Origin: Erythrobacter sp.
GTDB taxonomy: Bacteria > Pseudomonadota > Alphaproteobacteria > Sphingomonadales > Sphingomonadaceae
Reading direction: 5' to 3'
DNA length: 64,000 bases
NCBI GenBank assembly: GCA_027311945.1
Contig: DAICXZ010000032.1
Span: 124,001 to 188,000 of the forward strand
Shown here piece after piece: positions 46,824 to 61,203 of the stretch (position 1 is its first letter; every line of letters starts with the position of its first letter). The translations under genes and the position numbers were made by a program. The notes under the pieces were generated by a model. It saw only the letters and a program-made list of their open reading frames with translations. It made no database searches and was not told the origin of the DNA.

Positions 46824-46835
46824 TAACGAGCGTTA
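46824..46835. promoter_or_regulatory. Shared palindrome, site 1 (NTF2-like/GMC divergent promoter)
   Basis: TAACGAGCGTTA is a perfect TAACG-N2-CGTTA palindrome, 24 bp upstream of the GMC oxidoreductase ATG and 27 bp upstream of the divergent NTF2-like start. Matching sites occur at 52942, 56267 and 61190, all in divergent promoters of the same region. A MarR-type regulator is the likely reader. Confidence 0.65.
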
Positions 46836-46859
46836 GCAAGTGAAGGCAAGGAGAGAGTG

Positions 46860-48506
46860 ATGCACGAAGCGGATACCGACTATATCGTCGTCGGCGGCGG
46901 CAGCGCGGGCTGCGTGATCGCCTCGCGGCTGAGCGAAGACCCGAAGACCAGTGTCATGCTGCTGGAGGCGGGCGGCGAGGATAGCCACCCGTTCATCCGG
47001 ATGCCGCTGGGTTTCCTGCGCGCAATGATCATGCCGAGCCTCAACTGGACTTACATGACCGAGCCCGAGCCGGGCCTCGACGGGCGGCAGATGCCTTTGC
47101 CGCGCGGCAAGGTTATGGGCGGATCGGGTTCGATCAACGGCATGTTCGCGATGCGCGGGCACCCGGCGGACTATGACCAGTGGGCGCAAATGGGCGCACG
47201 CGGATGGTCCTATGCCGATTGTCTGCCCTATTTCCGCAAGATGGAGAACAGCTGGCGCGGGAAGGACGACTATCACGGCGTCGGCGGCCCGGTGACGATC
47301 CGCCCGATCGATTCGCCGCACGTGCTGCACGAAGTGATGATGGAGACGGCGGAGAACGCAGGCTTCACCACCACCGAGGATTTGGGCGGGGCGAAGCCCG
47401 AAGGCTTTGCCCGCGGCGAACAGTCGGTCGATGCGCGCGGTCGGCGCGTGTCGGGCGCGAGCGCCTATATCAAGCCCGCGCTTGGACGGCAGAACCTCGA
47501 TGTGCGCACGGGCATGCAGGTGCGCCGCGTGGTGTTCGAGGGCAAACGCGCAGTGGGCGTGGAAGTGCAGGCGGGCGAGGGCACCAAGGTGCTGCGCGCG
47601 CGCCGCGAGGTGATCCTGTGCGGCGGCACCTACAATTCGCCGCACCTGCTGATGCTGTCGGGGATCGGCCCGGCCGAGCACTTGCGCGATCATGGCATCA
47701 CCGTGCTGCACGACAGCCCCGGCGTGGGCCGCAACCTGCAGGAGCACCCGACCACCAGCCTCGAATGGGCGGCAAAGAAGAAGGTTACCTTCCTGCGTCA
47801 GCTACGCTGGGACCGCCTCGCCTTCAACGCGGCGAAATGGGCGCTGACGGGCACGGGCACCATGGCCAGCCAATTGAACAGCTGCAACGTGGTGGTGCGC
47901 ACCGCCGATCATCTCGAACGGCCCGACATGCAGATCATGGTCAACCCGATCCGCTTCGACGCGCAGACCTGGTTCCCGCTGTTGAAGCCCGAGCAGGAGC
48001 ATGTGTTCTGGGCCGGTGTGGTGCAGTTGCACCCCGAAAGCCGCGGCTGGGTGGAACTGAAAAGCGCCGATCCGATGGAAAGCGCCGCCGTCACGCTCAA
48101 CATCATGACCGAAGAGGCCGACCTTGCGCAGATGCGCCGCGCCATCCGCGCCACCCGCCGGATCTACAATTCGGAACCGATGGCGCAGCTGGTGGGGGCC
48201 GAACGCGCGCCTTCCGCAGGAGCGGAAACCGATGATGAGCTGAACGCGCTGATCCGGGCCACCTGCTATGTCGGGATGCATCCCACCAGCACCTGCGCGA
48301 TGGGCATGGGCGAGCGCAGCGTGGTCGATGCCGATTGCCGGGTGCTGGGCGTGGAAGGGCTGCGAGTGGTCGATTGTTCGGTCATGCCCACGGTGCCCGG
48401 CGGCAACACCAACATTCCGGTGATGATGCTGGCCGAAAAGGCGGCGGACCATATCAAGGGCAGCGTGCTCGCGCCTTCGGAGCTGCCACAGGTTCAGGCG
48501 GCATGA
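46860..48506 (+). CDS. GMC family FAD-dependent alcohol oxidoreductase
   Basis: A 548-residue glucose-methanol-choline oxidoreductase. The FAD motif DYIVVGGGSAGCVIASRLSE is followed by the GMC signature PRGKVMGGSGSINGMFAMRG, and later by GGTYNSPHLLMLSGIGP. The C-terminal active-site region GMHPTSTCAMGMG closes with PGGNTNIPVMMLAEK. It oxidises primary alcohols such as side-chain carbinols. In Sphingobium SYK-6, as I recall, GMC enzymes PhcC and PhcD oxidise the side chain of a lignin phenylcoumaran. ATG 46860 follows AAGGAGAGAG. It heads a GMC-NTF2-SDR-DUF3237 operon. Confidence 0.92.
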   Translation: MHEADTDYIVVGGGSAGCVIASRLSEDPKTSVMLLEAGGEDSHPFIRMPLGFLRAMIMPSLNWTYMTEPEPGLDGRQMPLPRGKVMGGSGSINGMFAMRGHPADYDQWAQMGARGWSYADCLPYFRKMENSWRGKDDYHGVGGPVTIRPIDSPHVLHEVMMETAENAGFTTTEDLGGAKPEGFARGEQSVDARGRRVSGASAYIKPALGRQNLDVRTGMQVRRVVFEGKRAVGVEVQAGEGTKVLRARREVILCGGTYNSPHLLMLSGIGPAEHLRDHGITVLHDSPGVGRNLQEHPTTSLEWAAKKKVTFLRQLRWDRLAFNAAKWALTGTGTMASQLNSCNVVVRTADHLERPDMQIMVNPIRFDAQTWFPLLKPEQEHVFWAGVVQLHPESRGWVELKSADPMESAAVTLNIMTEEADLAQMRRAIRATRRIYNSEPMAQLVGAERAPSAGAETDDELNALIRATCYVGMHPTSTCAMGMGERSVVDADCRVLGVEGLRVVDCSVMPTVPGGNTNIPVMMLAEKAADHIKGSVLAPSELPQVQAA

Positions 48507-48892
48507 GCCGCACACCGCAGGAGGAGGCTAACCTCGCGCTGGTGACGGGCTTGTTCGAGCATGTGCTGGGGCCGATGGATTCGAGCCGCGTCGATGAGTT
48601 TGTCGCGGAGGACTACATCCAGCACAGCCAGCTCGCCCCGCCGGGTCGCGATGCGCTGAAGGCCTTCCTCGACATGATCCGCAAGGAAACGCCCGAGGCC
48701 GTGCACGACGTGAAGCGCGCCTTCGTCGATGGCGACCATGTCACCGTGCACTATCACGTGCGCCGCTGGCCGGGCGATCTGGGCTGGGCGGTGATCGACA
48801 TTTTCCGCGTGGAAGACGGCAAGATCGCCGAACACTGGGACGTGTTGCAGGACGTGACCGAAGGCGGCCCCAATCCCAACGGGCCGTTTTGA
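48503..48892 (+). CDS. NTF2-like (SnoaL-type) protein
   Basis: A 129-residue protein of the SnoaL-like polyketide-cyclase group. It contains ANLALVTGLFEHVLGPMDSS, DEFVAEDYIQHSQLAPPGRD and the strand FRVEDGKIAEHWDVLQDV, which is typical of the family. Its ATGA overlap with the GMC gene stop shows translational coupling. In this operon it could act on the aldehyde or acid made by the GMC enzyme, for example as an isomerase or lyase. The reaction cannot be read from the sequence. Confidence 0.85.
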   Translation: MSRTPQEEANLALVTGLFEHVLGPMDSSRVDEFVAEDYIQHSQLAPPGRDALKAFLDMIRKETPEAVHDVKRAFVDGDHVTVHYHVRRWPGDLGWAVIDIFRVEDGKIAEHWDVLQDVTEGGPNPNGPF

Positions 48893-48913
48893 GCGGATCG
48901 GAGAGAGTGTGAT

Positions 48914-49663
48914 ATGAGGTTCAAAGACAAGGTCGTTCTGGTGCTCGGCGGCAATTCCGGCATGGGCCTCGCCTCGGCGCAGGCCTTTGCCGCAGAAGGC
49001 GCGACAGTCCACCTGACGGGCCGCAACCAGCAGACCATCGATGAGGCGGTCGCCTCAATCCCCGGCAGCACGGGCTATAGCGCCGACATCGCCGACCCCG
49101 CTGCCACCGAAGAAGTGGTGAGGCAGGTAGAACAGGCCGATGACCGCATCGACGTGCTGTACATCAATGCTGGCGTCGGCGGGTTCGCCCCGCTCGAAGC
49201 GATCACCGAGGATGATTGGGACTTCGTCCATTCGATCAACCTGCGCGGCTGCGTGTTTGCCTTGCAAAAAGCGGTGCGGATCATGGGCGAGGGCGGGGCG
49301 GTGGTCGTCACCGGCTCGATCGGCGCGCATGGGCCGCTTGAAGGCAACGGCACCTATGCCGCCGCCAAGGCGGGCCTCTCGATGGCGATGAAGGTGTTTG
49401 CGAAGGAACTGCTGCCGCGCAAGATCCGCCTCAACATGGTCAGCCCCGGCCCGATCGACACTCCGCTGCTCCACCGCAATCCCGGCATGGGGCCGGAAGA
49501 GGTGGAGAAGCTCAAGGAGATGATGATTGCCAACATCCCGATGCACCGCATGGGCACCAGCGAGGAAGTGGCGAAAGCCGTGCTGTTCCTCGCTGGCGAG
49601 GATGCAAGTTTCATTTCCGGCGTCGACCTGCTGGTCGACGGCGGCCTTATCGAACTGGGATAA
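48914..49663 (+). CDS. Short-chain dehydrogenase/reductase
   Basis: A 249-residue classical SDR. The nucleotide motif is LVLGGNSGMGLASAQAF, followed by INAGVG, the catalytic serine in VVTGSIGAHG and YAAAK. It ends in the SDR tail FISGVDLLVDGGLIELG. It would oxidise or reduce a hydroxyl/carbonyl of the pathway intermediate. It lies 21 bases after the NTF2-like gene, with GGAGAGAG before the ATG, and 3 bases before the DUF3237 gene. Confidence 0.92.
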   Translation: MRFKDKVVLVLGGNSGMGLASAQAFAAEGATVHLTGRNQQTIDEAVASIPGSTGYSADIADPAATEEVVRQVEQADDRIDVLYINAGVGGFAPLEAITEDDWDFVHSINLRGCVFALQKAVRIMGEGGAVVVTGSIGAHGPLEGNGTYAAAKAGLSMAMKVFAKELLPRKIRLNMVSPGPIDTPLLHRNPGMGPEEVEKLKEMMIANIPMHRMGTSEEVAKAVLFLAGEDASFISGVDLLVDGGLIELG

Positions 49664-49666
49664 GCC

Positions 49667-50197
49667 ATGACCACCTTCTCCGACACCACTCCCTTCTCCG
49701 CGCCCTTCAGCGAGCTGGACAACCCCCGGCTCGAATTCGTGATGGAGGTGCGCCTCACCTTCCCCGAGGTTTACACCATGGCTCCGCACCCCAACGGCGG
49801 AATGCGCAGCGCGGTGCTGGTCAAGGGCGGCACCTTCGAAGGCCCGAACATCAAGGGCCGCGCGGTGCCCGGATCGGGCGGTGACTATGCCTATTTCCGC
49901 CCCGACGATGTCGCCGTGTTCGATGCCCGCTACCTGCTGGAGGAGGACGACGGCACGATCATCCTTCTCAACAACAAGGGCTTCCTCTGGGGCCGCCAGC
50001 CCGACACGATGCAGCGCCTGCGCGACTGGGCCTTCAACGATGGCGAGCCGGTGCCGCACCCGGAATACTACCTGCGCGGCAACCCCACGTTCGAATGCGC
50101 GGTGGGCAAGCATGACTGGCTGACCAAGCACGTGTTCATCGGCGTGGGCGAGCGCAAGAGCGACGGCAATTGCCTGCGGTATTACGCGCTGACCTGA
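49667..50197 (+). CDS. DUF3237 domain protein, candidate decarboxylase
   Basis: A 176-residue protein of the DUF3237 family (PF11578): LEFVMEVRLTFPEVYTMAPH, GGTFEGPNIKGRAVPGSGGD, IILLNNKGFLWG, PEYYLRGNPTFECAVGKHDW and FIGVGER. From memory, Sphingobium SYK-6 PhcF and PhcG, stereospecific decarboxylases that turn a phenylcoumaran acid into a stilbene, belong to this family. A stilbene-cleaving oxygenase encoded 1.2 kb away makes the same role attractive here. The evidence for this step is context only. It is the last gene of the GMC operon. Confidence 0.8.
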   Translation: MTTFSDTTPFSAPFSELDNPRLEFVMEVRLTFPEVYTMAPHPNGGMRSAVLVKGGTFEGPNIKGRAVPGSGGDYAYFRPDDVAVFDARYLLEEDDGTIILLNNKGFLWGRQPDTMQRLRDWAFNDGEPVPHPEYYLRGNPTFECAVGKHDWLTKHVFIGVGERKSDGNCLRYYALT

Positions 50198-50300
50198 TCG
50201 ACGCGCGCCTCGCCATTTCGATTTACAAGCCATGAAATTGACTTAGTCTCTCCCGCCAGCGGCCCGCACAATGAGGCCGCAACAATCGAAGGGGGCTACA

Positions 50301-50801
50301 ATGTCTGGATATCTTGCGCTCGCCGTGTCGGTGGGTTTGCTGGCCGTGGTCGATACATGGCTGTTCGGCGTGCCTTTGGCGGGCTTCCTGCCGGGGCTGG
50401 TGTGGGTGAGCTTCATCGCCTGGGGCTGTTTCTTCCACTCGGGTGCGGGCAACAAGGGCCTCGTTACCGCGATCGTCGGCATGGCTTTCGGCGCTGCTGT
50501 GGGCGTGGCGGCCATCTGGGCGCTGATGGCGCCGCTTGCCGGGCTGGGCCAGTTCGCAGCGCCGGTGGCTGTCGGTCTGGGTGCTTTCGTGATCTGCCTT
50601 GCGAGCAAGGTGCCGCTGCTGGCAACTATCCCGGCCAGCGTCTATGGCTTTGCCGCCGTGGCAGGTGCCACTTTCCTGATGGCCGGCAACGGCGTGATGG
50701 ACCCGGTCAGCGCCTATTTCCCCACGGTGTTTTCCGTGATCATCGGCGCGTTGTTCGGCATCGTCTCTGAGAAGTTTGCCGCAGTTTTGACGAAGGCATG
50801 A
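50301..50801 (+). CDS. DUF1097 membrane protein
   Basis: A 166-residue inner membrane protein with about five helices: ALAVSVGLLAVVDTWLFGV, LVWVSFIAWGCFFHSGAGN, AIVGMAFGAAVGVAAIWAL, VAVGLGAFVICLASKVPLL and SVIIGALFGIVSEKFAAVL. This fits DUF1097, a family of unknown function sometimes near transport genes. GAAGGGGGC before the ATG at 50301 decides the start. It is 103 bases after DUF3237, so a separate promoter is possible. Confidence 0.8.
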   Translation: MSGYLALAVSVGLLAVVDTWLFGVPLAGFLPGLVWVSFIAWGCFFHSGAGNKGLVTAIVGMAFGAAVGVAAIWALMAPLAGLGQFAAPVAVGLGAFVICLASKVPLLATIPASVYGFAAVAGATFLMAGNGVMDPVSAYFPTVFSVIIGALFGIVSEKFAAVLTKA

Positions 50802-50810
50802 TGGCGCACA

Positions 50811-50838
50811 CAACGGGGCGGCTTGCGCTGCCCCGTTG
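50811..50838. terminator. Bidirectional hairpin between the DUF1097 and DoxX genes
   Basis: CAACGGGGC (50811-50819) pairs with GCCCCGTTG (50830-50838) around a 10-base loop in the 46-bp gap between two convergent genes. There is no T run, so efficiency is uncertain. Confidence 0.6.
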
Positions 50839-50847
50839 CCCGTCTCT

Positions 50848-51318
50848 TCAGTCCTGAATGCCGGCCCGGCCGGAAAAGTCGGGCCGACCATTCCAGACGA
50901 ACAGCGGCCAGTAATATCGCCGCCACGGCCACAGCAGGATCGCGTTGAACAGCAGCGTGAGCGCGCCGAAGGTGTACTCGACCGTCCCCACTTCGAGCAC
51001 GAAGTTCCAGTAAAGGATCACGAAGTTGATCGGCACGATGGCGGCAGCGACAAGCGGCATCATGCGGTTGGCCAGGATCAGCAGGCCGAATACGATCTCG
51101 GCCACCTTGATCCAGGCCATAAGGCCCGAAGCGATCAGCGCCACGGTGAAGTCGATCGCCGCCTGTTCCTGCCCCAGCGGCTGCCAGGCGGGATCGATGA
51201 ACGGCATCACGCCCGAATATATCCACCAGCCGCCGAACAGGATGCGGCTGAGGTGGTAAATCCACTTCATCGTTGGCCCGGGAAGCTCGTCGGGCAGGTC
51301 ATTGGCAGCTGTCGTCAT
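50848..51318 (-). CDS. DoxX-like membrane protein
   Basis: A 156-residue protein with four membrane helices. The first part reads HLSRILFGGWWIYSGVMPF, and later parts WIKVAEIVFGLLILANRMMP and IVPINFVILYWNFVLEVG fit the DoxX/DUF4870-like group. These are small membrane proteins of redox-related but unclear function. A charged tail (RRYYWPLFVWNGRPDFSGR) faces the cytoplasm. It lies 94 bases after the stilbene-oxygenase gene on the same strand and may be its transcript's second gene. Confidence 0.7.
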   Translation of the reverse strand: MTTAANDLPDELPGPTMKWIYHLSRILFGGWWIYSGVMPFIDPAWQPLGQEQAAIDFTVALIASGLMAWIKVAEIVFGLLILANRMMPLVAAAIVPINFVILYWNFVLEVGTVEYTFGALTLLFNAILLWPWRRYYWPLFVWNGRPDFSGRAGIQD

Positions 51319-51412
51319 CGTATCGGTATTCCGCTTGGGGGGCTCGCAGTGCTGTTGCGAGCCCGATGCTGGCCTCTCATAGCCCGCTTTGCGCCGCCGC
51401 GAAACGAGCGCC

Positions 51413-52897
51413 TTAGCTTACCTTCGAAGCGTCGAGCTTCGCGCGGCTGACCCAGGTTCCGTGGACCTGGCTGCGCAAGGCCAGCCCGGTCTTCACCTTG
51501 GCGATGGGGCCCTTCTCGACCGCGTCAGCTTCGATCACCCAGACCTCGCTGGAATAGTCCGCCGGATTGCCGCCCGGAGGGCCGTTGGGAATGTCGATGA
51601 CGGCCAGCAGCCAGCCGCCATGGCCTTCCTCGCTTGAGGGCACATGGGCCGGTTCGCTGATCGCGCTGGCGGGGGGCACTTCCATCATCGACACCCGGCC
51701 ATTGCCCACCTCGACGCGCAGCAGGGCGTTGAAGTTCGCCCCCACCGGTCCGCCGAGCATGGGCGGGCCCTTGGCCTCGGGGTTCATGCTCAGATACCAG
51801 GCATGGTTATAGGGGCGCCCCTGATCCTTGTCGGCCAGGCGGCACAGGTCGCCGGGAGGGCCGAGCGGACGCTCTGAAAACTCCGGCTGGTCCTTGCTCA
51901 TATCGAGCGTCCAGCGGGTGAGCGCGCCCTTGATGTCCTGCTGGGCGCGGTGGATGCCGCCCGCCTCGCGCATGAAGCTGAACGCATTGGTGTCGCTCAG
52001 GCACAGATCGATGTGGACAAGGTCGCCATCGTCGTAGGCATTGACCTCGTGGAAGCACGAGACGCCGACCGGGCCTTCGATCCAGACCATTTCCGACACG
52101 TCGCCATAGCGCGGCATGATGCCGATATAGCTCGGCTTCGACTGGTCGTGAGCCCAGTGCGCGCCGCCGTCCTTGAGCCGGGCGAGATCGGTCAGCGTGG
52201 GGAACACCGGGAAGATCGCGTATTTCTCGGTGATAACGAAGTCGTGGATGGTCGAGAGATAGGGCTGCTCGAACCACTGCTCCTTCACGAGGTTGCCGTC
52301 CTTGTCGGCGATGCAATAGGCGACGTTCGGATCGCACAGGCCGCCTGCCTCATAGCCGAAGAAGAACATCTCGCCGGTTTCGGGGTCGATCCGCGGGTGG
52401 GCGGTGAAGGTCTGGCTGCGGAGCTTGCCCTCATAGTCCCAGCGGCCAACGGTCTCCAGCGTATGCGGGTTGACCTCATAGCCGCGGCCGTCCTCCTTGG
52501 TCATGAACAGGCGGCCGCCGTGCCAGACCGGGGTGGTGTTGGCGAGCGTGCGGTCAGCGCCCTCGACGCTCGGATCATCGGTGAAGGGGTTGCGATAACG
52601 CCCGAACAGCGCGCGGCGGGCCTTCTTTTCCAACTTGTAGCGTTCGGTCTCGACATAGCGGATATCGAAATCTACTGCGCCGCCTTCGAAGTTGAAGCGG
52701 GCGATCATGCCATCATGGTTCAGTGCGATGTCGTCTTCGAACATCGGGGCATGAGCGTTGTCGGGCACGGCGCGGAAGAAGGCGCCCTCGATCTCGGCCG
52801 GGATCTCGCCCTCGACCGCGAGGTTGCGGAGCGACATCTCCACGCGCCGGGGCGTGTTGGTGCCGATGAAATGGATCGTTTGCGGATAGCTCGCCAC
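51413..52897 (-). CDS. Carotenoid-oxygenase family, lignostilbene-dioxygenase-like
   Basis: A 494-residue non-haem Fe(II) seven-bladed propeller enzyme. All four iron histidines are present: His167 (TFTAHPR), His218 (STIHDF), His283 (CFHEVNAY) and His479 (QVHGTW). Tyr101 and Lys134 fall at the same numbers I recall for the residues that grip the 4-hydroxyl of stilbenes in LsdA and NOV1. Residue 59 is Leu where LsdA has Phe. It would cleave a central C=C of a 4-hydroxystilbene or phenylpropene into two aldehydes. It is divergent from a MarR gene with a shared palindrome between. Confidence 0.88.
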   Translation of the reverse strand: MASYPQTIHFIGTNTPRRVEMSLRNLAVEGEIPAEIEGAFFRAVPDNAHAPMFEDDIALNHDGMIARFNFEGGAVDFDIRYVETERYKLEKKARRALFGRYRNPFTDDPSVEGADRTLANTTPVWHGGRLFMTKEDGRGYEVNPHTLETVGRWDYEGKLRSQTFTAHPRIDPETGEMFFFGYEAGGLCDPNVAYCIADKDGNLVKEQWFEQPYLSTIHDFVITEKYAIFPVFPTLTDLARLKDGGAHWAHDQSKPSYIGIMPRYGDVSEMVWIEGPVGVSCFHEVNAYDDGDLVHIDLCLSDTNAFSFMREAGGIHRAQQDIKGALTRWTLDMSKDQPEFSERPLGPPGDLCRLADKDQGRPYNHAWYLSMNPEAKGPPMLGGPVGANFNALLRVEVGNGRVSMMEVPPASAISEPAHVPSSEEGHGGWLLAVIDIPNGPPGGNPADYSSEVWVIEADAVEKGPIAKVKTGLALRSQVHGTWVSRAKLDASKVS

Positions 52898-52941
52898 GTG
52901 GTTACTCCCAAGTCTGATCTGCTGATTCTTGGCGGCAACGC

Positions 52942-52953
52942 TAACGCCTGTTA
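52942..52953. promoter_or_regulatory. Shared palindrome, site 2 (oxygenase/MarR divergent promoter)
   Basis: TAACGCCTGTTA fits TAACG-N2-CGTTA with one mismatch (TGTTA). It lies 44 bp upstream of the stilbene-oxygenase ATG and 63 bp upstream of the MarR start, the expected place for an autoregulatory operator. Confidence 0.6.
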
Positions 52954-53016: not shown

Positions 53017-53553
53017 TTGGTAATCTACAGGCAAGGGGCGGCGGAAGAGACGGAGCGCGGATATGTCGCTCAAAGCGAAGCTGCCGCGATGCTACACCGG
53101 TTGCTGAAGCTGACCAATCGGCTGATGGCTCCGTTCAGCACGCACCTTTCGCACCGCTATCGCATCAGCCTCAACGAGTTCCGGGTGCTGATGACCATTG
53201 GCGCGCTCAAGCAAACCGCCAGCCACGAGGTGGCCGAACTGACCGGGGTGAACGCGATGAGCATCTCGCGCGCGGTGGCGACGCTTGAACGCCACGGCCG
53301 CATCGCCGTTTCCGTCGACGAGGCGAACCGGCGGCGCAAGTGGCTGAGCCTCACCGAAGAGGGTGAGCGATTGTACAAGCTGATGAAGCCGCAGAGCGAG
53401 CAGGTCGCGCATTATCTGTTCGATGCGATCAGCTCGGCCGAACTGGCGGCCTTTGGCGACATCGTCGAAAAGCTGATCGAGCGGCTCGATGCGACCGACG
53501 AGAACGGCAATTCGGTGTTCCTCGAAAGCACCAAGCCGCCGGTGGAAAGCTAG
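53017..53553 (+). CDS. MarR family transcriptional regulator
   Basis: A 178-residue winged-helix repressor. It shows AAAMLHRLLKLTNRLMAPFS, RISLNEFRVLMTIGALKQTA, recognition helix ELTGVNAMSISRAVATLERH and wing RIAVSVDEANRRRKWLSLTE. MarR proteins release DNA on binding phenolic ligands, which suits this region. A TTG at 53017 with GGAGAAGGGA upstream is taken as start; an in-frame ATG at 53089 would cut into helix 1. It is divergent from the stilbene oxygenase and is the best candidate to read the four shared palindromes. Confidence 0.88.
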   Translation: MVIYRQGAAEETERGYVAQSEAAAMLHRLLKLTNRLMAPFSTHLSHRYRISLNEFRVLMTIGALKQTASHEVAELTGVNAMSISRAVATLERHGRIAVSVDEANRRRKWLSLTEEGERLYKLMKPQSEQVAHYLFDAISSAELAAFGDIVEKLIERLDATDENGNSVFLESTKPPVES

Positions 53554-53586
53554 ACCCGGAAGGCTGGGACGGATAAGTCGCTTGGC

Positions 53587-54036
53587 ATGACACATACACC
53601 TTACGGCATGGACGAAGACAGCCGCCGCGCTGTTGAAGCTGACGTCACGCGGCTGATTCACGAATATACCTGGGCCAACGATGCCCAGGATTGGGAAGCC
53701 TGCGCCCGGCTTTACACCCAGGATGCGGTGTTCCGCCGCCCCAGCGGGGGCGAGCCGGTAATTGGCCGCGCGGCGATTCTGGAAAGCTTCCTGGCCCGCA
53801 AGCCGCGCGCGCAGCGCCATGCGATCGCCAACGTGCTGGTCGATGTCGAAGGCCCCGCCACCGCCCGTGCGAAAAGCGTGATCGTGCTCTACATGGGCGA
53901 TGCGGCGGACGATGGCGGCCTGCCGGTGCAGGATGCCAAGAGCCCGCTCATCGGCACCTTTACCGATCGCTGCGTGCTGACGCCCCACGGCTGGCGCTTT
54001 GCCGAGCGGGTCGGCGGGCTCGACTTCAGGCCGTAA
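53587..54036 (+). CDS. NTF2-like (SnoaL-type) protein
   Basis: A 149-residue single-domain NTF2-like protein: VTRLIHEYTWANDAQDWEAC, LYTQDAVFRRPSGGEPVIGR, ILESFLARKPRAQRHAIANV and FTDRCVLTPHGWRFAERVGG. The N-terminal helix pair and RHAIANVLV strand match the aromatic-ring-hydroxylase-beta/SnoaL-like group. From memory, Novosphingobium LdpA, a lyase that makes a stilbene from a lignin diarylpropane, is also NTF2-like; that link is only suggestive. It lies 33 bases after marR, likely cotranscribed, and overlaps the convergent MFS gene by 11 bases. Confidence 0.82.
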   Translation: MTHTPYGMDEDSRRAVEADVTRLIHEYTWANDAQDWEACARLYTQDAVFRRPSGGEPVIGRAAILESFLARKPRAQRHAIANVLVDVEGPATARAKSVIVLYMGDAADDGGLPVQDAKSPLIGTFTDRCVLTPHGWRFAERVGGLDFRP

Positions 54037-55246
54037 CCGCCGCCGGCTCCACCCGCTGCCGCACCAGCAGCGCGCGGCTCACCAGCAAGGCGACCAACAC
54101 GCAGACCAGCGCCGGGATTGCGGCCACGCCGAGGAAGGTCTGTGCGGGCACATTGGCCGCGATCATTGCGCCGCCCAGCGGAGGGCCGGCAAAGGCCCCA
54201 AGGCGCGCGACCAGCACGCCCATTCCCACCGCGCTTGACAGCAGCCTTGCGGGGAACAGGTAGGCGCACAGGCCGGGCAGCACCATGCCGCCCGCATTGG
54301 CCCCGCCAACGCCTACCATCAGCAGCAGCGTCCAGCGCGTCTGGTCGGGCGCGGTCAGCGCGATGGCGGCAAAGCTTGCGGCCATGGAGCCGAACAGCAG
54401 CGCCAGCGTCAGCCCCTTGTGCCAGCGATCAAGCAGCAGGCTCGCGCCGATACCGATGCCGAGCCCCGCGAGATTGGCCACGCCCGCTACCCGCGCGGCA
54501 TCGTCGAGGCTCAGGCCAGCGCCGGGCAGCACGGTCGGCAGCCACGAGTTGAGCAGGTAAAGATTGAGCGCGTTGAAGGCGAGCATCGCGGCGAACACTG
54601 CGAAGGGGAACAGCCAGGGCGCGCTGAACAGCACCAGTTGCGGCAGTTTCGCCTTGGGCGCGGAGGCATCAGCCGGTTCGCGCGCGGGCGCTCCGCCTTC
54701 GAGCGACAGGAACAGCGCCCCGGCCAGCACCACGGCGAAGGCACCGGGGACGATGAACAGCCCCTGCCAGCCGAATGCGGCGATCAGTTCGGGCGCGAGC
54801 AGCCCGGCCAGCGCGAGGCCCACCGGAATGCCCGCCGAGACGACTGCCATCAGCGTGGCGCGCAGTTTCTCGGGTGCGAGTTCGGAAGACAGCGCGCTGA
54901 CATTGGGTAGGCAGGCGCCGAGTGCGAGGCCGGTGAGCGTGCGCCAGAACAGGAAATGTTCGATGTCGCTCGAACTCGCCGTACCCAGAGTCGCCAGTCC
55001 GGTGCCGAGGCAGCCGAGCACGATCAGCGTGCGCCTGCCGAAGCGGTCGCCCAGCGGCGCGATCAGCGCGCCGCCAAGGCCCAGCCCGACCAGCAGCGCG
55101 GTGAAGACCCAGCCGAACCCGGCAGGATCGAGCCCGAGCGCAGCTTCGAGCCGCGGCACGGCGAGGCTCATGGCGGCAATATCGAAGCCTTCCATGATGA
55201 ACACACCTGCCAGCAAGGCGAGGGCGATGATGCGGCTGCTGGTCAT
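54026..55246 (-). CDS. MFS transporter, aromatic acid:H+ symporter (AAHS)-like
   Basis: A 406-residue, 12-helix carrier. It shows IIALALLAGVFIMEGFDIAA, the loop-2/3 signature PLGDRFGRRTLIVLGCLG and LTGLALGACLPNVSALSSEL, characteristic of the AAHS branch (PcaK, MhpT). A polar middle loop (EGGAPAREPADASAPKAK) separates the halves. It probably imports a phenolic acid from this pathway. ATG 55246 is chosen over 55264 because GGAAG lies just ahead and the first helix follows at once. Confidence 0.85.
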   Translation of the reverse strand: MTSSRIIALALLAGVFIMEGFDIAAMSLAVPRLEAALGLDPAGFGWVFTALLVGLGLGGALIAPLGDRFGRRTLIVLGCLGTGLATLGTASSSDIEHFLFWRTLTGLALGACLPNVSALSSELAPEKLRATLMAVVSAGIPVGLALAGLLAPELIAAFGWQGLFIVPGAFAVVLAGALFLSLEGGAPAREPADASAPKAKLPQLVLFSAPWLFPFAVFAAMLAFNALNLYLLNSWLPTVLPGAGLSLDDAARVAGVANLAGLGIGIGASLLLDRWHKGLTLALLFGSMAASFAAIALTAPDQTRWTLLLMVGVGGANAGGMVLPGLCAYLFPARLLSSAVGMGVLVARLGAFAGPPLGGAMIAANVPAQTFLGVAAIPALVCVLVALLVSRALLVRQRVEPAAVTA

Positions 55247-55278
55247 GTGCTTCCGTTCTCCCAAATCCCTCCGCTCAT

Positions 55279-55355: not shown

Positions 55356-55370
55356 GCGAGCGGTGGTGGT

Positions 55371-56222
55371 TCAGCTCCGCAAATCCCACGGGCTCGGCAT
55401 CCGATATGGCACCGTCAGGAAATCGGCTTCGATCTGCCGGATCGCCCCGTCGACGATCTTGAAGGCCTCGGCCAGGTAGTACGAATGCGGGCGGCGCACC
55501 GGGCTTTGTGCGGGCGTGCCGTCGACAAGAGTGTAGTCGCCGATGCGGCCCGAATGGTCGATAAAGCCATAGGCCAGCACCAGCCCCTGCTCCACATCGA
55601 CCAGCGGGAAGCGTCGTGCACGCAGGTCATCGTCATAGCGATACCAGCCGAGCGCGAACTGCTCCTCGCAGCCGAACCTTGCGATGGGCAGCGGGAAATC
55701 GGCATTGTTGGTGGTCTGCACCCCGTTCTCGACCCGGTTGCATTCCGGGTGGAAGCGGGTGCGGATCGTCCCGTCGTTGCGCTCGATGGTCTCGAAGTAG
55801 CCGTTGGCGATGCGCACCAGCTCTTCGCGCGCGGCGGGGGCGGCGGGCAGGGCCATCTCGGGTTTATCGTGGAAAAACTGCGGGCCGAAGGGAAAACCCT
55901 CGTCCTTGTTGCGCGCGACTGCCGTCTCGACTCCGGTGATCCGCCCATCGGCCACCTCAAGCCTGATGCAGCAGGGGTTGAGCGCATCCGATTCCTCGAC
56001 TGCGGTGAACACGGCGACCTGTCCCTGCTCTGGATCGGCCATCCGCAACTGATAGGGATCGCGCGCCGTGATCGTGTTCCACAGCCCGTCCCCCACGGCG
56101 AGTGCCACGTTGTTCTCGGTGTTGAACACCTCGCTCGCAAAGGGTGCCCGTTCGGTCGCCTGCACTTCGAGTGCGGCGAGATAGGCGTCAAGCACAGCGT
56201 AAAGTTCGGTTCTGCTGGTCAA
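55371..56222 (-). CDS. Unknown protein of the aromatic region, possible double NTF2-like fold
   Basis: A 283-residue soluble protein without signal peptide. It opens RTELYAVLDAYLAALEVQAT, which resembles the first helix of NTF2-like proteins. A second similar helix, AAREELVRIANGYFETIERN, starts near residue 130, suggesting two such domains in tandem. Between them lie CCIRLEVADGRITGVETAVA and a Pro-rich stretch; the end is QIEADFLTVPYRMPSPWDLR. No known family is recognised. It is divergent from an SDR-flavocytochrome operon, with a perfect TAACG-N2-CGTTA palindrome in the 86-bp gap. Confidence 0.72.
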   Translation of the reverse strand: MTSRTELYAVLDAYLAALEVQATERAPFASEVFNTENNVALAVGDGLWNTITARDPYQLRMADPEQGQVAVFTAVEESDALNPCCIRLEVADGRITGVETAVARNKDEGFPFGPQFFHDKPEMALPAAPAAREELVRIANGYFETIERNDGTIRTRFHPECNRVENGVQTTNNADFPLPIARFGCEEQFALGWYRYDDDLRARRFPLVDVEQGLVLAYGFIDHSGRIGDYTLVDGTPAQSPVRRPHSYYLAEAFKIVDGAIRQIEADFLTVPYRMPSPWDLRS

Positions 56223-56266
56223 GTTCCTCTCCCTCTCTTGACTCGATGCCTCTCTAGAGGAAAAGT

Positions 56267-56278
56267 AACGCTCGTTAA
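56267..56278. promoter_or_regulatory. Shared palindrome, site 3 (unknown protein/SDR divergent promoter)
   Basis: TAACGCTCGTTA is a perfect TAACG-N2-CGTTA palindrome, 30 bp upstream of the SDR ATG and 44 bp from the divergent start. It is one of the two best copies of the element and heads the flavocytochrome operon. Confidence 0.68.
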
Positions 56279-56308
56279 AGTCGCGAGCTGAGCGATTGGG
56301 AGAGAACT

Positions 56309-57076
56309 ATGGATCCGGCAGGCAAGGTGGCGCTCGTCACCGGCGGCAACTCAGGGCTTGGCGCGGGTGCGGCAGAGCGGCTCGCGGTGCTCGGCGCAAC
56401 GGTGGTGAGCTGCGATGTGGCGGGCGAAGCGCCTGCGGACGCCGAGTTCATCCAATGCGACGTATCCGACGAGGCCAGCGTAAAGGTCGCCGTGGCCGAG
56501 GTGATCGCGCGCCATGGCCGGATCGACATCTGCTGCAACAATGCAGGCGTGGGCGGCCTCGGCCCCATCGCGACCGCTGACGGGCCGGGCAACATTGCCG
56601 ATTTCGCCCGCGTGATCGGGATCAACCTGATGGGTGCGGTGCATGTGGCCGCGCACGTCGGCCATGCCATGATCGCCAACGAACCGAGCGGGGCCGATGG
56701 CGAGCGCGGGGTGATTGTGAACACCTGCTCAATCGCCAGCTTCGAGGGGCAGGAAGGCATGGGCGCCTACACCGCCGCCAAGGCCGCGCTGAAGGAGCTG
56801 ACGCTGGTCTGGGCGCGTGACCTGTCGCGTCATGCGATCCGCGTGAATGCGGTCGCACCCGGCTTCATGGCGACTCCGCTGGTGGCGATGCTGCCGCCCG
56901 ATCTGGTGGCTGAACTGCTGCGCGACGTGGAGTTCCCCAAACGCGCGGGAACGGGCGAAGACTTCGCCGCCGCCGTCGAATTTCTCATCCGCACCCCGCT
57001 GGTCAACGGCGAGGTGCTGCGGCTCGATGGCGGCGCTCGTCCGCCTGCCCGCACTCAATGGGCCTCTGGCCAGTAA
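56309..57076 (+). CDS. Short-chain dehydrogenase/reductase
   Basis: A 255-residue SDR with VALVTGGNSGLGAGAAERLA, the NNAGVG motif, NTCSIASFEGQEGMGAYTAAK (Ser, Tyr, Lys) and RVNAVAPGFMATPLV. The layout is close to the HSD10/3-hydroxyacyl-CoA dehydrogenase branch. It would oxidise the benzylic alcohol made by the flavocytochrome encoded next, an inference from order. It lies 12 bases before the flavoprotein gene and 30 bp after the shared palindrome. Confidence 0.9.
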   Translation: MDPAGKVALVTGGNSGLGAGAAERLAVLGATVVSCDVAGEAPADAEFIQCDVSDEASVKVAVAEVIARHGRIDICCNNAGVGGLGPIATADGPGNIADFARVIGINLMGAVHVAAHVGHAMIANEPSGADGERGVIVNTCSIASFEGQEGMGAYTAAKAALKELTLVWARDLSRHAIRVNAVAPGFMATPLVAMLPPDLVAELLRDVEFPKRAGTGEDFAAAVEFLIRTPLVNGEVLRLDGGARPPARTQWASGQ

Positions 57077-57088
57077 GGACGCTTCACC

Positions 57089-58651
57089 ATGGCAGACATA
57101 CCCCTTCCGCCCGGCTTCACCGCCATGAAGATGGACCAGGCCCGCGCCGAGCTTGAAACGCTGCTCGGGGCGAGAAAGGTGTTCTTCGAGGATCTCGACC
57201 GGACCACCTACAAGGACAAGTTCGCGGTCAACGATGCGGGCCATCACCCTTCTGGCGCGGTCGCGCCGGAAAGCGTGGAGGAAATTCAGGCCGTGCTGCG
57301 GGTGGCGAACCAGTATCGCCTGCCGATCTTCCCGATCGCACGCGGCAAGAACCTCGGTTACGGCGGCACCGCGCCGGTGCTGGCGGGCAGCGTGGTGATG
57401 GACCTGTCGCGGATGAAGAAGATCGAGTTCGATGCCGAACTCGGCACCGTGCTGCTCGAACCGGGCGTCGGCTTTTACGACCTTTACGACTATATCCGGC
57501 AGAACAACCTGCCCTACTGGCTTTCGACTCCCGGCAACTCCTGGGGCTCGGTGATGGGCAATGCGCTCGATCGCGGCGTCGGCTACACGCCCTATGGCGA
57601 GCACACGAAGAACATCTGCGGGCTGGAAGTGGTGCTGGCCAATGGCGAGGTGGTGCGTACCGGCATGGGCGCTTTCTCGAACGCGCCGACCTGGCAGGCC
57701 TATCCGTTCGGCTTCGGCCCCGGATGGGATCAGATGTTCGTGCAGTCGAACTACGGGATCGTCACCAAGATGGGCATGTGGCTGATGCCCGAGCCCGAAA
57801 GCCTGATGGGCATGGATGTCGAGTTCGACAAGAAGGAAGACCTGAAGGTGATGGTCGACACCATCGCCCCGCTGCGCCGCGAGCGGCTGCTGACCCAGAG
57901 CCCTTCGATCGGCAACTGGATGCGCGCCGCCTCGGTTCTGACCACTCGCGACCAGTGGTCCGACAAGCCCGGCGCGCTTGACGACAGCGCGATTGACGCA
58001 ATCCGCAAGCAGTTCAACATCGGCTGGTGGGGCGTCAGCTTGCGCCTCTATGGCCGCGAGGATGTGAACAAGGCGGCCTACAAGGTGCTGGAACAGGCGA
58101 TGGGCAATGCCGGCCCGATGTCGATCAAGCCGACCAGCTGGGTGAAGGGCGAGCCGATGGAGTACACCGGCTGGACCGGCACCCCGCTGACCTTCCCGAT
58201 GCAGAACGCCAACTGGTACGGCGGGCGCGGCGGCCACATTGGCTTTTCGCCCATTATCGAGCAGGATGGTGACAAGGCGCTGGCGCAATTTCGCCGCACC
58301 TATACGCGCTATCAGGAATATGGCGTCGACTATCAGGGCAGCTTCGCCTTTGGCGAGCGGCATCTCACCAACGTCAATGCGATGGTGTTCAACAAGGACG
58401 ATCCAGCCTTCATGGCCAAGATCGACCCGTTCTTCCGCACGCTGGTCGCCGACGCGAAGGAGCAGGGCTACGGCGAATACCGGACCCACCTCGATTACAT
58501 GGACCTGGTGGCCGACACCTATGACTACAACAACAATGCCCTGCGCCGCCTCAACGAGACGGTGAAGAACGCTCTCGACCCCAACGGGATCATCGCGCCG
58601 GGCAAGAGCGGCATCTGGCCCAAGGGCTTTGCACAGGAGCGCGGACAATGA
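57089..58651 (+). CDS. VAO/PCMH family flavoprotein (4-alkylphenol oxidising)
   Basis: A 520-residue FAD enzyme of the vanillyl-alcohol oxidase / p-cresol methylhydroxylase family. The FAD part has LPIFPIARGKNLGYGGTAPV and WLSTPGNSWGSVMGNALDRG with GVGYTPYGEH. The substrate part has GGHIGFSPI and GEYRTHLDYMD. His383 lies where I recall VAO and eugenol oxidase link FAD, and Tyr464-Arg465 match the phenolate-binding pair. The next gene encodes a cytochrome c with a 4-base overlap, so electrons go to cytochrome rather than oxygen, as in p-cresol, eugenol and pinoresinol hydroxylases. The substrate is a para-substituted phenol. Confidence 0.9.
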   Translation: MADIPLPPGFTAMKMDQARAELETLLGARKVFFEDLDRTTYKDKFAVNDAGHHPSGAVAPESVEEIQAVLRVANQYRLPIFPIARGKNLGYGGTAPVLAGSVVMDLSRMKKIEFDAELGTVLLEPGVGFYDLYDYIRQNNLPYWLSTPGNSWGSVMGNALDRGVGYTPYGEHTKNICGLEVVLANGEVVRTGMGAFSNAPTWQAYPFGFGPGWDQMFVQSNYGIVTKMGMWLMPEPESLMGMDVEFDKKEDLKVMVDTIAPLRRERLLTQSPSIGNWMRAASVLTTRDQWSDKPGALDDSAIDAIRKQFNIGWWGVSLRLYGREDVNKAAYKVLEQAMGNAGPMSIKPTSWVKGEPMEYTGWTGTPLTFPMQNANWYGGRGGHIGFSPIIEQDGDKALAQFRRTYTRYQEYGVDYQGSFAFGERHLTNVNAMVFNKDDPAFMAKIDPFFRTLVADAKEQGYGEYRTHLDYMDLVADTYDYNNNALRRLNETVKNALDPNGIIAPGKSGIWPKGFAQERGQ

Positions 58652-59106
58652 TCGGAAAGCACGGAAAGACGACGCTCGCCATCACCCTGGCTGGCGCACT
58701 GGCAGTGGCCGGATGCATGAGCATGGCAGCGGCGCAGGAAGGCGGCGCAACGCCGGAGGCCTCGGCCACCGACACGGCCCCCGCGCAGCCCGCGCCCCCA
58801 CCGAGTATGCCGCAGCCGATCACCTTGGCGGACCGGCCCAATGCCACTGGCGGCGAGGCGCTCTATGTCGAGAATTGCATGATGTGCCATGGCCCGGTGG
58901 GCATGGGCACGGGGCTGCTCGAACGCCGGGGCCGCGCGCATGCCGAGCTGGAGAAGCGCGGCGATCTTGCCGCTGCCTTCGTGGTGCTGGCCGCGCGCAA
59001 CGGCATCGGCAACATGCCCGCGATTCCGCGCGGCGAAGTCTCCGACGAGGAACTCCAGGCGATTGCCGACTATCTCGCGGCGGGCCCGCATGGAGGCGAG
59101 CAGTGA
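58648..59106 (+). CDS. c-type cytochrome subunit of the flavocytochrome
   Basis: A 152-residue periplasmic cytochrome. After a signal region (LAITLAGALAVAGCMSMAAA) and a Pro-rich linker comes one haem site, Cys77-x2-Cys80-His81 in NCMMCHGPVGMG. The sixth ligand is probably Met123 in GIGNMPAIPRGEVSDEEL. The fold matches the short cytochrome that partners PCMH-type flavoproteins. The signal also reads as a lipobox (LAVAGC), so membrane anchoring is possible. It overlaps genes on both sides by 4 bases. Confidence 0.9.
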   Translation: MIGKHGKTTLAITLAGALAVAGCMSMAAAQEGGATPEASATDTAPAQPAPPPSMPQPITLADRPNATGGEALYVENCMMCHGPVGMGTGLLERRGRAHAELEKRGDLAAAFVVLAARNGIGNMPAIPRGEVSDEELQAIADYLAAGPHGGEQ

Positions 59107-59471
59107 GGCTGACCCGCCGCTCGTTCGTCGCCGCTGCTGCGGCTTTGCCTGCCGCCGCTTCAGCCGCCGAGATCGGCTGGAAGGACGGCCACCAGACCGT
59201 GTTGCTGTTCGATCCGGCCCTTGCCGAGGGCCGCGCTTTTGCCGATGCGGGCTCGGCCTGGAACCGTGCGGTGATCGCCATCGAGGGTGACCGCGTGCGT
59301 TTCGGGCGCGAGCTGTTCGCGCGTCGTCCGGCCATCGTGCAGGGCGTGAGCCGCTCGGCCGATGCGCTGTTGCTCGAAGAGGTTGCGCAGGAAGCCGGCT
59401 ACGAACGCGTATCGCTTGAGCGCGACGGCCGCGCGATGAAGTGGGTACTGATGCCGAAGTTGCGGCGCTGA
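59103..59471 (+). CDS. Small TAT-exported accessory protein of the flavocytochrome operon
   Basis: A 122-residue protein starting at GTG 59103 inside the cytochrome stop (GTGA). LTRRSFVAAAAALPAAASAA is a twin-arginine signal. The mature part is about 100 residues, with GWKDGHQTVLLFDPALAEGR, AVIAIEGDRVRFGRELFARR and a basic C-terminus. No family is recognised and no cofactor motif is visible. The tight coupling suggests it helps assembly, export or electron transfer of the flavocytochrome. Confidence 0.75.
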   Translation: MRLTRRSFVAAAAALPAAASAAEIGWKDGHQTVLLFDPALAEGRAFADAGSAWNRAVIAIEGDRVRFGRELFARRPAIVQGVSRSADALLLEEVAQEAGYERVSLERDGRAMKWVLMPKLRR

Positions 59472-59478
59472 TCCACGG

Positions 59479-59502
59479 CCCTCTCCCCGAGAGGGGAGAG
59501 GG
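59479..59502. terminator. Bidirectional hairpin between convergent genes
   Basis: CCCTCTCCCC and GGGGAGAGGG pair perfectly over 10 bp with a GAGA loop, in the 40-bp gap between the flavocytochrome operon and the tannase-family gene. There is no T run; it may instead be a small REP-type repeat. Confidence 0.6.
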
Positions 59503-59511
59503 CGCGGCAAC

Positions 59512-61074
59512 TCAGGGCAGCGCGCAGGAGAAGCTGGCGGCGACATTCGGGTCGCCCGTGCCGTCATACTTCGCCACCCATGGCCAGGCGCAGAGCGGGC
59601 GCTGCATCGGCTCGCGCGGCGGGGCCGGGGGCTGGCCGGGGAAGGTCGGCGCTACGGTCGGGCGGTTGGCGAGGATGCGGTTGGGCGCGGTGCCGTTGGT
59701 TGCCCAGTCGTCGATGATGCCAAGCGTGTCGATTTCGCTCGGCCCCGCACCGCCCGAGCAGTGATCCATCCCCGGCGCCATGAACAGCCTGAGCTGGCTG
59801 TCGCGCTGGGCGGCGGGCAGGGCATTGAACAGGCCATAGTGGAACGCGAGGGTGTTGGTTGCGGGAATTAGTCCGTCCGACCAGCCATGCGAAAGCAGCA
59901 GCTTGCCGCCGCGCTGGAAGAAGGCGCCAAGGCCATCGCTCGGCACGTTGAGGATTTCGCTGCCATAGGCGTATCCATCCGCAGCATAGGTGCGGTAATC
60001 GGTTGATTTCCAATCCCAATCGGGCTTTCCCCCATAAACGAGGTCGCGGAAGTAGCTCATCGCGACGGGGAACGGTTCTTCGCCCATCACCAGCAGCGCC
60101 ATCTGCATTTCCGAGCCATAGGGCCAGCCGGGCAGCAGCAGGCTGCCGTCATTGGCGCGGGTGCCGCCGAACAGGTTGCTAACCGCGTGATACTGGCCCG
60201 ACGACAGGCATGCGCCCTCCTGCCCCGCGCGGCATTGCAGCTTCGCAAGGTCGGGGCGGCATTGCAGCGGCGAGGAGACGATGCCGTCGGTCACGCCGTC
60301 GATCCCGTCGCAGGCGCGCAGGATTTCCGAATGCACCAGCCCGAGGACATCGGGCGTCAGCTTCACGCCGAAGCGCACCGGCTGGAAGCCCTGCCACATG
60401 GACTGCGTCATGAGGTCGGTCATCGGGTTGGCGGGGGCCATGGCGCTGATCGCGTCAAAGTCCTCGGGGTAGCGATAGGCCGCCATCAGCCCCTGTCGCC
60501 CGCCGGTGGAGCACGAGTTCCAGTAAGACTTGCGCGGGCCGCTGCCATAGTTCGCCGCGACGATCCGTTTGGCCGCCTCGGTCGTGACGTGGACCGCGCG
60601 ATAACCGAAATCTACCAGCTTTTCCGGGTGGCCGATGGCCCAGCGCGCGTCCATCCCGCTGCCGACATGGCCGGTGTCGGTGGCGGCGGTGGCATAGCCG
60701 CGCGCCAGCGCGCGGCCCATCTCGGCATAGGAAATCGAGCCTGCCCAGATGCCGTTGCCGATCCCGACATATTTGCCGTTCCAGCCTGACAGCGGCAGCC
60801 AGACCTCGCTCTTGATGTCCGAATCGCTGCTCGGCGTGAGCGTCATCTCCACCCGGCAGAAGGCGGGCACATCGGCAAAGGGGCTGGCGGCGACGCCCGG
60901 CGGCGGGCCCATGCCGTTGTTGGGCGGAGTGAAGGCACCCTTGGCCACCTCGGTCGCCGCAGTAACTTCGCCCGCGCCCAGATCGAGCCCGACAAGATCG
61001 CCGCAGGCCGCATAAGCAGGCGTGGCAAAGGCAAAGGTTGCACTGGCGAGCGCCAGCATGGTCTTGATGTGCAT
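59512..61074 (-). CDS. Tannase/feruloyl esterase family protein
   Basis: A 520-residue exported hydrolase. Signal peptide LALASATFAFATPAYAA precedes a tannase-family alpha/beta fold with CRVEMTLTPSSDSDIKSEVW, the nucleophile in SYWNSCSTGGRQGLMAAYRY and MAPANPMTDLMTQSMWQGFQ. The acid/histidine region is KLLLSHGWSDGLIPATNTLA then APGMDHCSGGAGPS. Conserved cysteines, including those in CSTGG and DHCSG, probably form the tannase disulfide at the active site. It would release phenolic acids from esters. ATG 61074 follows GAGGGAGTGACG. It is divergent from the NmrA-like gene with palindrome site 4 between. Confidence 0.9.
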   Translation of the reverse strand: MHIKTMLALASATFAFATPAYAACGDLVGLDLGAGEVTAATEVAKGAFTPPNNGMGPPPGVAASPFADVPAFCRVEMTLTPSSDSDIKSEVWLPLSGWNGKYVGIGNGIWAGSISYAEMGRALARGYATAATDTGHVGSGMDARWAIGHPEKLVDFGYRAVHVTTEAAKRIVAANYGSGPRKSYWNSCSTGGRQGLMAAYRYPEDFDAISAMAPANPMTDLMTQSMWQGFQPVRFGVKLTPDVLGLVHSEILRACDGIDGVTDGIVSSPLQCRPDLAKLQCRAGQEGACLSSGQYHAVSNLFGGTRANDGSLLLPGWPYGSEMQMALLVMGEEPFPVAMSYFRDLVYGGKPDWDWKSTDYRTYAADGYAYGSEILNVPSDGLGAFFQRGGKLLLSHGWSDGLIPATNTLAFHYGLFNALPAAQRDSQLRLFMAPGMDHCSGGAGPSEIDTLGIIDDWATNGTAPNRILANRPTVAPTFPGQPPAPPREPMQRPLCAWPWVAKYDGTGDPNVAASFSCALP

Positions 61075-61187
61075 CGTCACTCCCTCTCGTTTTGCTAGGC
61101 ACCGTAGCGCCGCTGCGCCGATAAAAAAGTCGTCACTTATCTCAGCCGCGTGAAAACCCGCCCGGAGCGTTCTCCTGTTGCCCCAAC

Positions 61188-61203
61188 CATAACATCCGTT
61201 ATG
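61188..61203. promoter_or_regulatory. Shared palindrome, site 4 (tannase/NmrA divergent promoter)
   Basis: CATAAC-ATCC-GTTATG is a perfect 6+6 palindrome with a 4-bp centre; its core TAACATCCGTTA matches TAACG-N2-CGTTA with one mismatch. It lies 26 bp upstream of the NmrA-like start and 113 bp from the tannase start. Confidence 0.62.

Follow-up and report, generated by a model that had tools for sequence, protein, structure and literature searches.

A conserved palindrome at divergent promoters of candidate lignin-aromatic genes in Erythrobacter and its putative MarR-family regulator

The window analyzed here is a 64-kb stretch of the 3.04-Mb genome of an Erythrobacter sp. (contig 4, bases 124001–188000), in which four copies of a short palindrome, TAACG-N2-CGTTA, lie between candidate aromatic catabolic genes, one of them beside the gene of a MarR-family regulator. 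The copies, referred to below as operators A to D, are identified by window matches and by promoter conservation. Operator A (46824..46835, TAACGAGCGTTA) occupies the gap between a minus-strand SnoaL-like gene (46404..46796, PF12680), whose ATG at 46796 is 27 base pairs (bp) away, and a plus-strand GMC oxidoreductase gene (46860..48506, PF00732 and PF05199), whose ATG at 46860 is 24 bp away. Operator B (52942..52953, TAACGCCTGTTA) lies 44 bp from the GTG at 52897 of a minus-strand lignostilbene alpha,beta-dioxygenase gene of the NOV2 type (51413..52897) and 63 bp from the plus-strand MarR-family gene (53017..53553), if the latter starts at TTG 53017, a start that is approximate. Operator C (56266..56277, TAACGCTCGTTA) is located 43 bp from TTG 56222, the start of a minus-strand gene for a conserved 283-amino-acid protein (55371..56222), and 31 bp from ATG 56309 of a plus-strand SDR dehydrogenase gene (56309..57076, PF00106) that is followed by flavocytochrome genes. 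Operator D (61190..61201, TAACATCCGTTA) lies 115 bp from ATG 61074, the likelier start of a minus-strand gene of the tannase/feruloyl esterase family (59512..61074), and 28 bp from TTG 61230 of a plus-strand gene for an NmrA-like NAD(P)-binding protein (61230..62138, PF13460). The preliminary description of this DNA had placed operator C at 56267, one base too far; its positions for the other three are correct and their sequences were confirmed there. All four operators sit in divergent gaps, as it had proposed, operator D on the condition that ATG 61074 is the tannase-family start, for the longest open reading frame (ORF), from TTG 61218, would cover it. The proposed spacing of 24–63 bp from a start codon fails for the tannase-family gene.

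Searches used TAACGNNCGTTA as the query palindrome and TAAC-N4-GTTA as its relaxed core. With at most one mismatch to the query, the window contains exactly four matches, operators A to D, and a fifth is found nowhere in the 64 kb, as had been claimed. Shuffled windows contain 0.32 such matches on average and 3 at the most, and none of 100 shuffles reaches four. Exact copies of the relaxed core likewise number four, against an expected mean of 0.06.

The four sites recur at the orthologous promoters of related bacteria. Twenty-five Erythrobacteraceae loci of MarR relatives (488,644 bases) were fetched, and a script sought TAACN4GTTA within 320 bp of each identified flanking gene, locus L101 being left out. 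The operator A promoter has a site in 16 of 20 loci, in every case TAACGNNCGTTA, with G..C as inner bases, and the operator D promoter has one in 19 of 20, always TAACANNCGTTA (A..C). At the operator B promoter, sites are present in 23 of 25 loci, as TAACGNNTGTTA (G..T) in 16 and as TAACANNTGTTA (A..T) in 7; at the operator C promoter the count is again 23 of 25, with inner bases G..C in 21 and A..C in 2. The inner bases are therefore largely promoter-specific across loci. Several misses of the script do have a site, which falls beyond the limit through over-long ORF starts (L096 for operator A, at 929; L105 and L110 for operator C; L094 for operator D). Across the same 25 loci, TAACGNNCGTTA with up to one mismatch has 62 intergenic matches, with 31 perfect copies among them; a further 20 matches fall within genes as the script roughly delimits these. 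The 59 other permutations of the half-site yield 11 intergenic matches at best and a median of 1, with 5 perfect matches in total.

Beyond these loci, the host genome contains 7 perfect sites and 26 with up to one mismatch. Among 40 genomes of the genus, the 17 in which no MarR orthologue was detected mostly lack the perfect palindrome as well: 14 have none, 2 have one and a single, incomplete genome (G033) has 8. Position is informative too. Sixty stretches around perfect sites, chosen from among those listed for 13 relatives (12 with MarR, plus G033), contain 62 perfect sites, of which 47 are intergenic and 0–150 bp upstream of a called start, compared with 4.9% of random positions; under a looser rule a gene points away from 58 of the sites, compared with 47% of random positions.

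The genes that follow these sites fall into clusters common to several genomes, own loci included. They encode a serine-hydrolase-like protein of the beta-lactamase family (9 stretches; Pfam assignment on one member), a StyD-like aldehyde dehydrogenase (8), a second lignostilbene dioxygenase (7), an SMP30-like protein (6), the GMC oxidoreductase (5) and a TonB receptor (3, with two sites 26–27 bp apart). The cluster names "SMP30-like" and "esterase" are presumptive readings of the sequence. Of 39 secA loci, 15 have genes for SMP30-like and/or MFS proteins beside secA; each of these 15 comes from a MarR-bearing genome and carries a perfect site. No MarR-less genome among the 39 loci shows this target beside secA, the G033 locus being cut by a contig end, which leaves none there that keeps the target without MarR. 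The proposal that scattered genes form a single regulon is supported by these recurrences, and the regulon seems larger than first thought, reaching beyond the window. Two of the conditions named in advance as refuting it, random genome-wide density and lack of conservation at orthologous promoters, were checked, and both checks favor the proposal.

Chance resemblance of promoter sequences in a GC-rich genome would be one alternative to such a regulon, and some counts do speak for it and against a genuine operator. With two mismatches allowed, the window holds 6 matches where 8.7 are expected, which is chance level and confines the signal to the tight motif. One-mismatch sites in the host genome are partly intragenic, and their number, 26, is not far from the chance figure of about 15 obtained when the window shuffles are scaled up. 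In most of the 40 genomes, perfect copies of a reversed control pattern, ATTGCNNGCAAT, equal or outnumber those of the operator; with up to one mismatch, this control occurs 127 times in the host genome against 26 for the operator. Raw density is consequently no argument for the motif, since the control is equally or more frequent. The shuffle, permuted-palindrome, orthologous-promoter and positional controls nevertheless all refute a chance origin, which we regard as vanishingly improbable. The reversed pattern itself reaches 30 perfect copies in one genome (G022).

The protein encoded at 53017..53553 is a MarR-family regulator by several measures. It matches PF01047 at 32.1 bits (cut-off 24.6), and its predicted structure has the MarR fold with a predicted local distance difference test (pLDDT) value of 87.5. 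A structure search returned 305 PDB matches at E ≤ 0.001, and the 50 listed are MarR-type as far as their titles tell, several of them DNA-bound; PDB matches by sequence are likewise MarR-type regulators. Among the nearest solved structures are some of DNA-bound regulators and those of the aromatic-acid regulators BpsR, HosA and PcaV. Residues of the recognition helix and wing (M81, S82, S84, R85, A86, V87, D101, N104, R106, R107 and K108) are invariant in 32 sequences, L101 being left out of the comparison.

The palindrome also accompanies most of the MarR genes. A candidate palindromic operator, TAACN4GTTA, lies in or beside the gene's own promoter, within 400 bp upstream, in 35 of 44 distinct MarR copies, against a background of 0.068 per 430 bp. 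A second MarR gene in G035 (L215, 54% identical) is flanked by perfect sites to its left and right, a span of about 5 kb containing four of them, and a divergent MarR gene in G026 (L214) has sites nearby in different surroundings. Order-level and plasmid searches added 12 loci of MarR relatives, three of them from genomes already among the fetched loci, and 10 of the 12 hold at least one site with up to one mismatch. These site-holding loci include plasmids of Novosphingobium PP1Y, Novosphingobium RL4 and Sphingobium V4 (3 plasmid records), while L264 and L274 have one-mismatch sites only.

At the scale of whole genomes, MarR and motif occur together. Using an orthologue threshold of E ≤ 1e-30 and at least two perfect sites as the mark of the motif, MarR is found in 23 of the 40 genus genomes and the motif in 23, with agreement in 38 (22 with both, one with each alone and 16 with neither). 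Fisher's test, which ignores kinship, gives p = 4.4e-9 for this association. When 37 of the genomes were placed on a SecA tree, eight independent pairs could be drawn, of which six differ in the same way, none in the opposite way and two show no difference (sign test, p = 0.031).

Several observations weigh against MarR as the binder. For nine of the 44 MarR copies, the 400 bp upstream do not contain TAACN4GTTA, and two MarR loci, both 55% identical (L268 in G158 and L273 in G103), have no site with up to one mismatch in 16.5 kb. In genome G033, with its 8 sites, no MarR gene was detected; the genome is 86% complete, the contig with its GMC site ends before the MarR position, and 7 of its 8 sites precede genes of clusters common to other genomes. 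G061 has MarR and no perfect site, with one-mismatch sites at the promoters of its MarR and tannase genes. Elsewhere in the order, genomes that have no close MarR relative hold up to 5 perfect sites (G052). Finally, the pathway genes, the motif, MarR and an IclR-family regulator are mostly lost together. As a separate observation, the 16.5 kb around L273, which comes from another family of the order, contains TAACATTTGTTA, TAACTTTTGTTA and TAACATATGTTA, possibly an operator variant with changed inner bases.

The IclR-family regulator is encoded on the minus strand at 44382..45134 (PF01614 and PF09339 on ORF 44382–45416, bounded by its homology range and noted for its co-occurrence). It was overlooked when the gene at 53017..53553 was called the only MarR gene of the region, a statement that may stand by name. 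This protein could bind the palindrome, with MarR merely a target of the regulon. Of the 40 genomes, 25 have the IclR gene, and its presence matches that of the sites in 38, exactly as often as the presence of MarR does (exceptions G027 and G061). MarR loci led to 12 genomes, in part the same as those of the genus set, and 11 of the 12 have the IclR gene. Within the window, it follows the SnoaL-like gene and a MetE-like gene in the same orientation, which may place it under operator A, and the operator of KdgR, an IclR-family protein, has a central AACG-N-CGTT according to an excerpt of its description (PMC13273656). Co-occurrence cannot single out MarR, because IclR agrees equally, and MarR was not accepted as the binder on that ground alone; the sites beside the regulator genes and the sister genomes G027 and G061 were used instead.

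These comparisons set the two regulators apart. TAACN4GTTA is absent from the 400 bp upstream of all 26 distinct IclR copies, so the own-gene site looked for in an IclR regulon was not found, in contrast to the 35 of 44 MarR copies that have one. Within 1 kb, a site with up to one mismatch accompanies 29 of 44 MarR copies and 0 of 26 IclR copies. G027 keeps an IclR gene 86% identical to that of its sister G061 and lacks MarR; it has no perfect site genome-wide and no site with up to two mismatches in the 19.9 kb around its IclR gene, whereas G061 has both regulators and the two one-mismatch sites. The second MarR locus of G035, with its four perfect sites, has no IclR gene in its 19.9 kb. MarR is favored because of the upstream sites, the presence of sites at varied MarR loci and the G027/G061 contrast, and binding by the IclR-family protein appears rather unlikely. 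The motif adjoins MarR across loci and paralogues and does not adjoin the co-occurring IclR gene, which is why MarR is taken as the probable binder.

Some other, unlinked regulator, of the TetR family for example, might recognize the palindrome, linkage and co-occurrence being all that points to MarR, and perfect sites are present in some other families of the order that have no close MarR. The motif nonetheless stays beside MarR through rearrangements and on plasmids, and an unlinked binder is judged very unlikely from a comparison that covered the MarR and IclR genes. Computation shows the palindrome itself, how it is conserved and positioned, and that it is linked to the MarR gene. From these observations we infer, with considerable confidence, that the protein at 53017..53553 binds the TAACGNNCGTTA palindrome, that it represses lignin-aromatic catabolic genes and that its effector is an aromatic compound.

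Alignment of the flanks of 187 non-redundant site–gene pairs (of 213, with divergent pairs counted in both directions) gives some indication of how such repression might work. An A at −4 in 164 of the 187 pairs and a T at +15 in 158 extend the sites to a 20-bp palindrome, A-N3-TAACG-N2-CGTTA-N3-T. The +15 T was considered as the last base of a −10 box and rejected in that role; it is counted as part of the operator because its position is symmetric with the A at −4 and because most alphaproteobacterial promoters are reported to lack the last T of the −10 box (PMC8407463). A −35-like CTTG starts at −32..−28 from the motif in 31 of the 187 pairs (shuffle mean 4.5, maximum 13) and at −17..−12 in 65 (shuffle mean 5.7, maximum 14). 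Either spacing would put the operator over the core promoter. Against this stand the 92 pairs that have CTTG at neither position.

Repression is probably steric, with a MarR dimer bound to the operator, at a core promoter that in many cases serves two divergent genes, and keeping RNA polymerase off. An aromatic from this pathway, a stilbene or one of its phenolic products being the likeliest, would release the dimer and so turn on the scattered regulon, the regulator itself included. The regulon would comprise two lignostilbene dioxygenases, the GMC and flavocytochrome oxidases, an aldehyde dehydrogenase, feruloyl-esterase-like and other hydrolases, and transporters. MarR could instead act as an activator, or as repressor or activator depending on the site, as the MarR genes of L264, L265 and L274 might suggest, each with a one-mismatch site just upstream of a TTGACA-like −35. 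In the 95 of 187 pairs that have CTTG at a preferred position, by contrast, the site lies between CTTG and the gene, and activation, at some or all sites, is judged unlikely.

MarR-type regulators of lignin aromatics are already known (Saro_0803, DesR, FerC and CouR), and the candidate described here would be a new one of this kind, with a wide, well-conserved regulon. FerC of Sphingobium sp. SYK-6 is reportedly a MarR-type regulator of phenylpropanoid catabolism. CouR of Rhodococcus jostii, reported to be MarR-type, also governs phenylpropanoid catabolism and answers to p-coumaroyl-CoA (PMC4737184). The nearest published case is Saro_0803 of Novosphingobium aromaticivorans, a MarR-type regulator of the stilbene-cleaving dioxygenase gene nov1, which likewise pairs such a regulator with a stilbene dioxygenase gene; according to excerpts of that work, its site follows the −35 and covers the −10 box, and resveratrol releases it (PMC10046596). 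The core-promoter-covering operator proposed here would resemble that arrangement. The distance to the gene start is 44 bp for operator B and 28 bp for the site of the second dioxygenase (L016:8157), with promoter elements recognized from pooled sequence only. The two systems differ in that the excerpts describe one promoter for Saro_0803, compared with many here, and in that its operator, GCAATA-N6-TATTGC as given there, has no match with up to two mismatches in the window.

DesR of SYK-6 offers a second parallel as a MarR-type repressor of several lignin-aromatic genes and its own: in the excerpts available, it represses desB, ligM and itself and responds to vanillate and syringate, through operators GTTTGTGTCACATAC and GTTTGTGTAACATAC that are unlike the window palindrome (PMC6888825). 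The DesR operator GTTTGTGTNACATAC has no more than 2 three-mismatch matches in the window, at 1970 and 5928, which is chance level. No published report of the present operator, and no MarR regulon for the NOV2 pathway, was found in the open-access literature searched.

LdpA is presumably of the NTF2/SnoaL type, and a gene of that type lies near the NOV2-type dioxygenase here: the plus-strand SnoaL_4 (NTF2-like) gene adjoining MarR (53587..54036, PF13577), whose product could, at a guess, be an LdpA-like lyase. The LdpA–LsdA/NOV2 pathway for beta-1 dimers has a NOV2-type dioxygenase in common with this locus; the word MarR is absent from both main texts, and the excerpts consulted name no regulator for the pathway (PMC11323797, PMC12997858). 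For the beta-1/stilbene branch of lignin breakdown, the enzymes have been described, and the only regulator of a stilbene dioxygenase that we found named, in the papers and excerpts consulted, is Saro_0803 for nov1. The MarR protein may be a sensor of stilbene or of phenolic fragments of lignin. Its operator consensus would let candidate regulon members be listed in any genome of the group and would flag unassigned NTF2-like, DUF3237, SMP30-like and serine-hydrolase-like proteins as co-regulated. A more ambitious reading, which we hold tentatively as a real but not favored possibility, is that of a lineage-wide lignin-dimer regulon in Erythrobacteraceae and neighboring sphingomonads. One MarR would then control about ten dispersed operons, with functions that include TonB uptake, the cleavage of stilbenes and the oxidation of aldehydes; promoter-specific inner bases would set a conserved order of derepression, and the operator would mark unannotated proteins, such as the NTF2-like family of 55371..56222, as pathway enzymes.

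The NOV2-type dioxygenase matches the NCBIfam equivalog NF053780 at 869 bits (cut-off 650), and its PDB relatives are lignostilbene dioxygenases. The 283-amino-acid protein at 55371..56222 has no Pfam match; parts of its model match NTF2-like folds with a template modeling (TM) score, by target, of at most 0.67, and the secondary structure points to a pair of NTF2-like domains. The candidate regulon includes several NTF2/SnoaL-type proteins. The tannase-family protein matches PF07519 at 294 bits on the ORF to 61218, and its PDB relatives are feruloyl esterases and MHETase. Downstream of the operator C dehydrogenase, on the same plus strand, are a flavoprotein of the vanillyl-alcohol/eugenol oxidase and p-cresol methylhydroxylase type (57089..58651; PDB relatives 8s7t, 5fxd and 1dii) and a cytochrome c (58648..59106, PF13442). 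The NmrA-like gene is followed by a plus-strand gene for a PQQ-dependent dehydrogenase (62135..64000, PF01011 on ORF 61988–64000; start approximate) that runs past the window.

Further plus-strand genes after the GMC oxidoreductase encode an SDR dehydrogenase (48914..49663, PF13561) and a DUF3237 protein (49667..50197, PF11578). On the minus strand are the MetE-like gene between the SnoaL-like and IclR genes (45143..46270; cobalamin-independent synthase domain, PF01717 at 46.5 bits) and an MFS transporter gene (54026..55264, PF07690) nearest to aromatic-acid symporters, its 192 bits to TIGR00895 being below cut-off. A DesA/LigM-type O-demethylase gene lies upstream, at 41795.

The closest relatives by SecA in the sets searched are G021 (94%), G026 (92%) and G020 (91%). 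Before a TonB receptor gene in G000, perfect sites lie 27 bp apart (L018:9001 and 9028; C10:297701 and 297728), and similar pairs are present in G020, G021 and G026. All four genomes also have a MarR-like frame of 321–325 amino acids, 27–29% identical to the window MarR, about 6.4–8.3 kb from the site pair. The second lignostilbene-dioxygenase-like gene, which scores 798.1 bits, just below the cut-off of 800, and adjoins ligAB-like genes, has a perfect site 28 bp ahead of its start (C4:112657), some 11 kb outside the window on its upstream side. Roughly 40 bp upstream of that MarR-type site is a TTGATCAAGGTCAAAG-like element (upstream of L016:8196; also in relatives L159, L162 and L165), perhaps the site of a second regulator.

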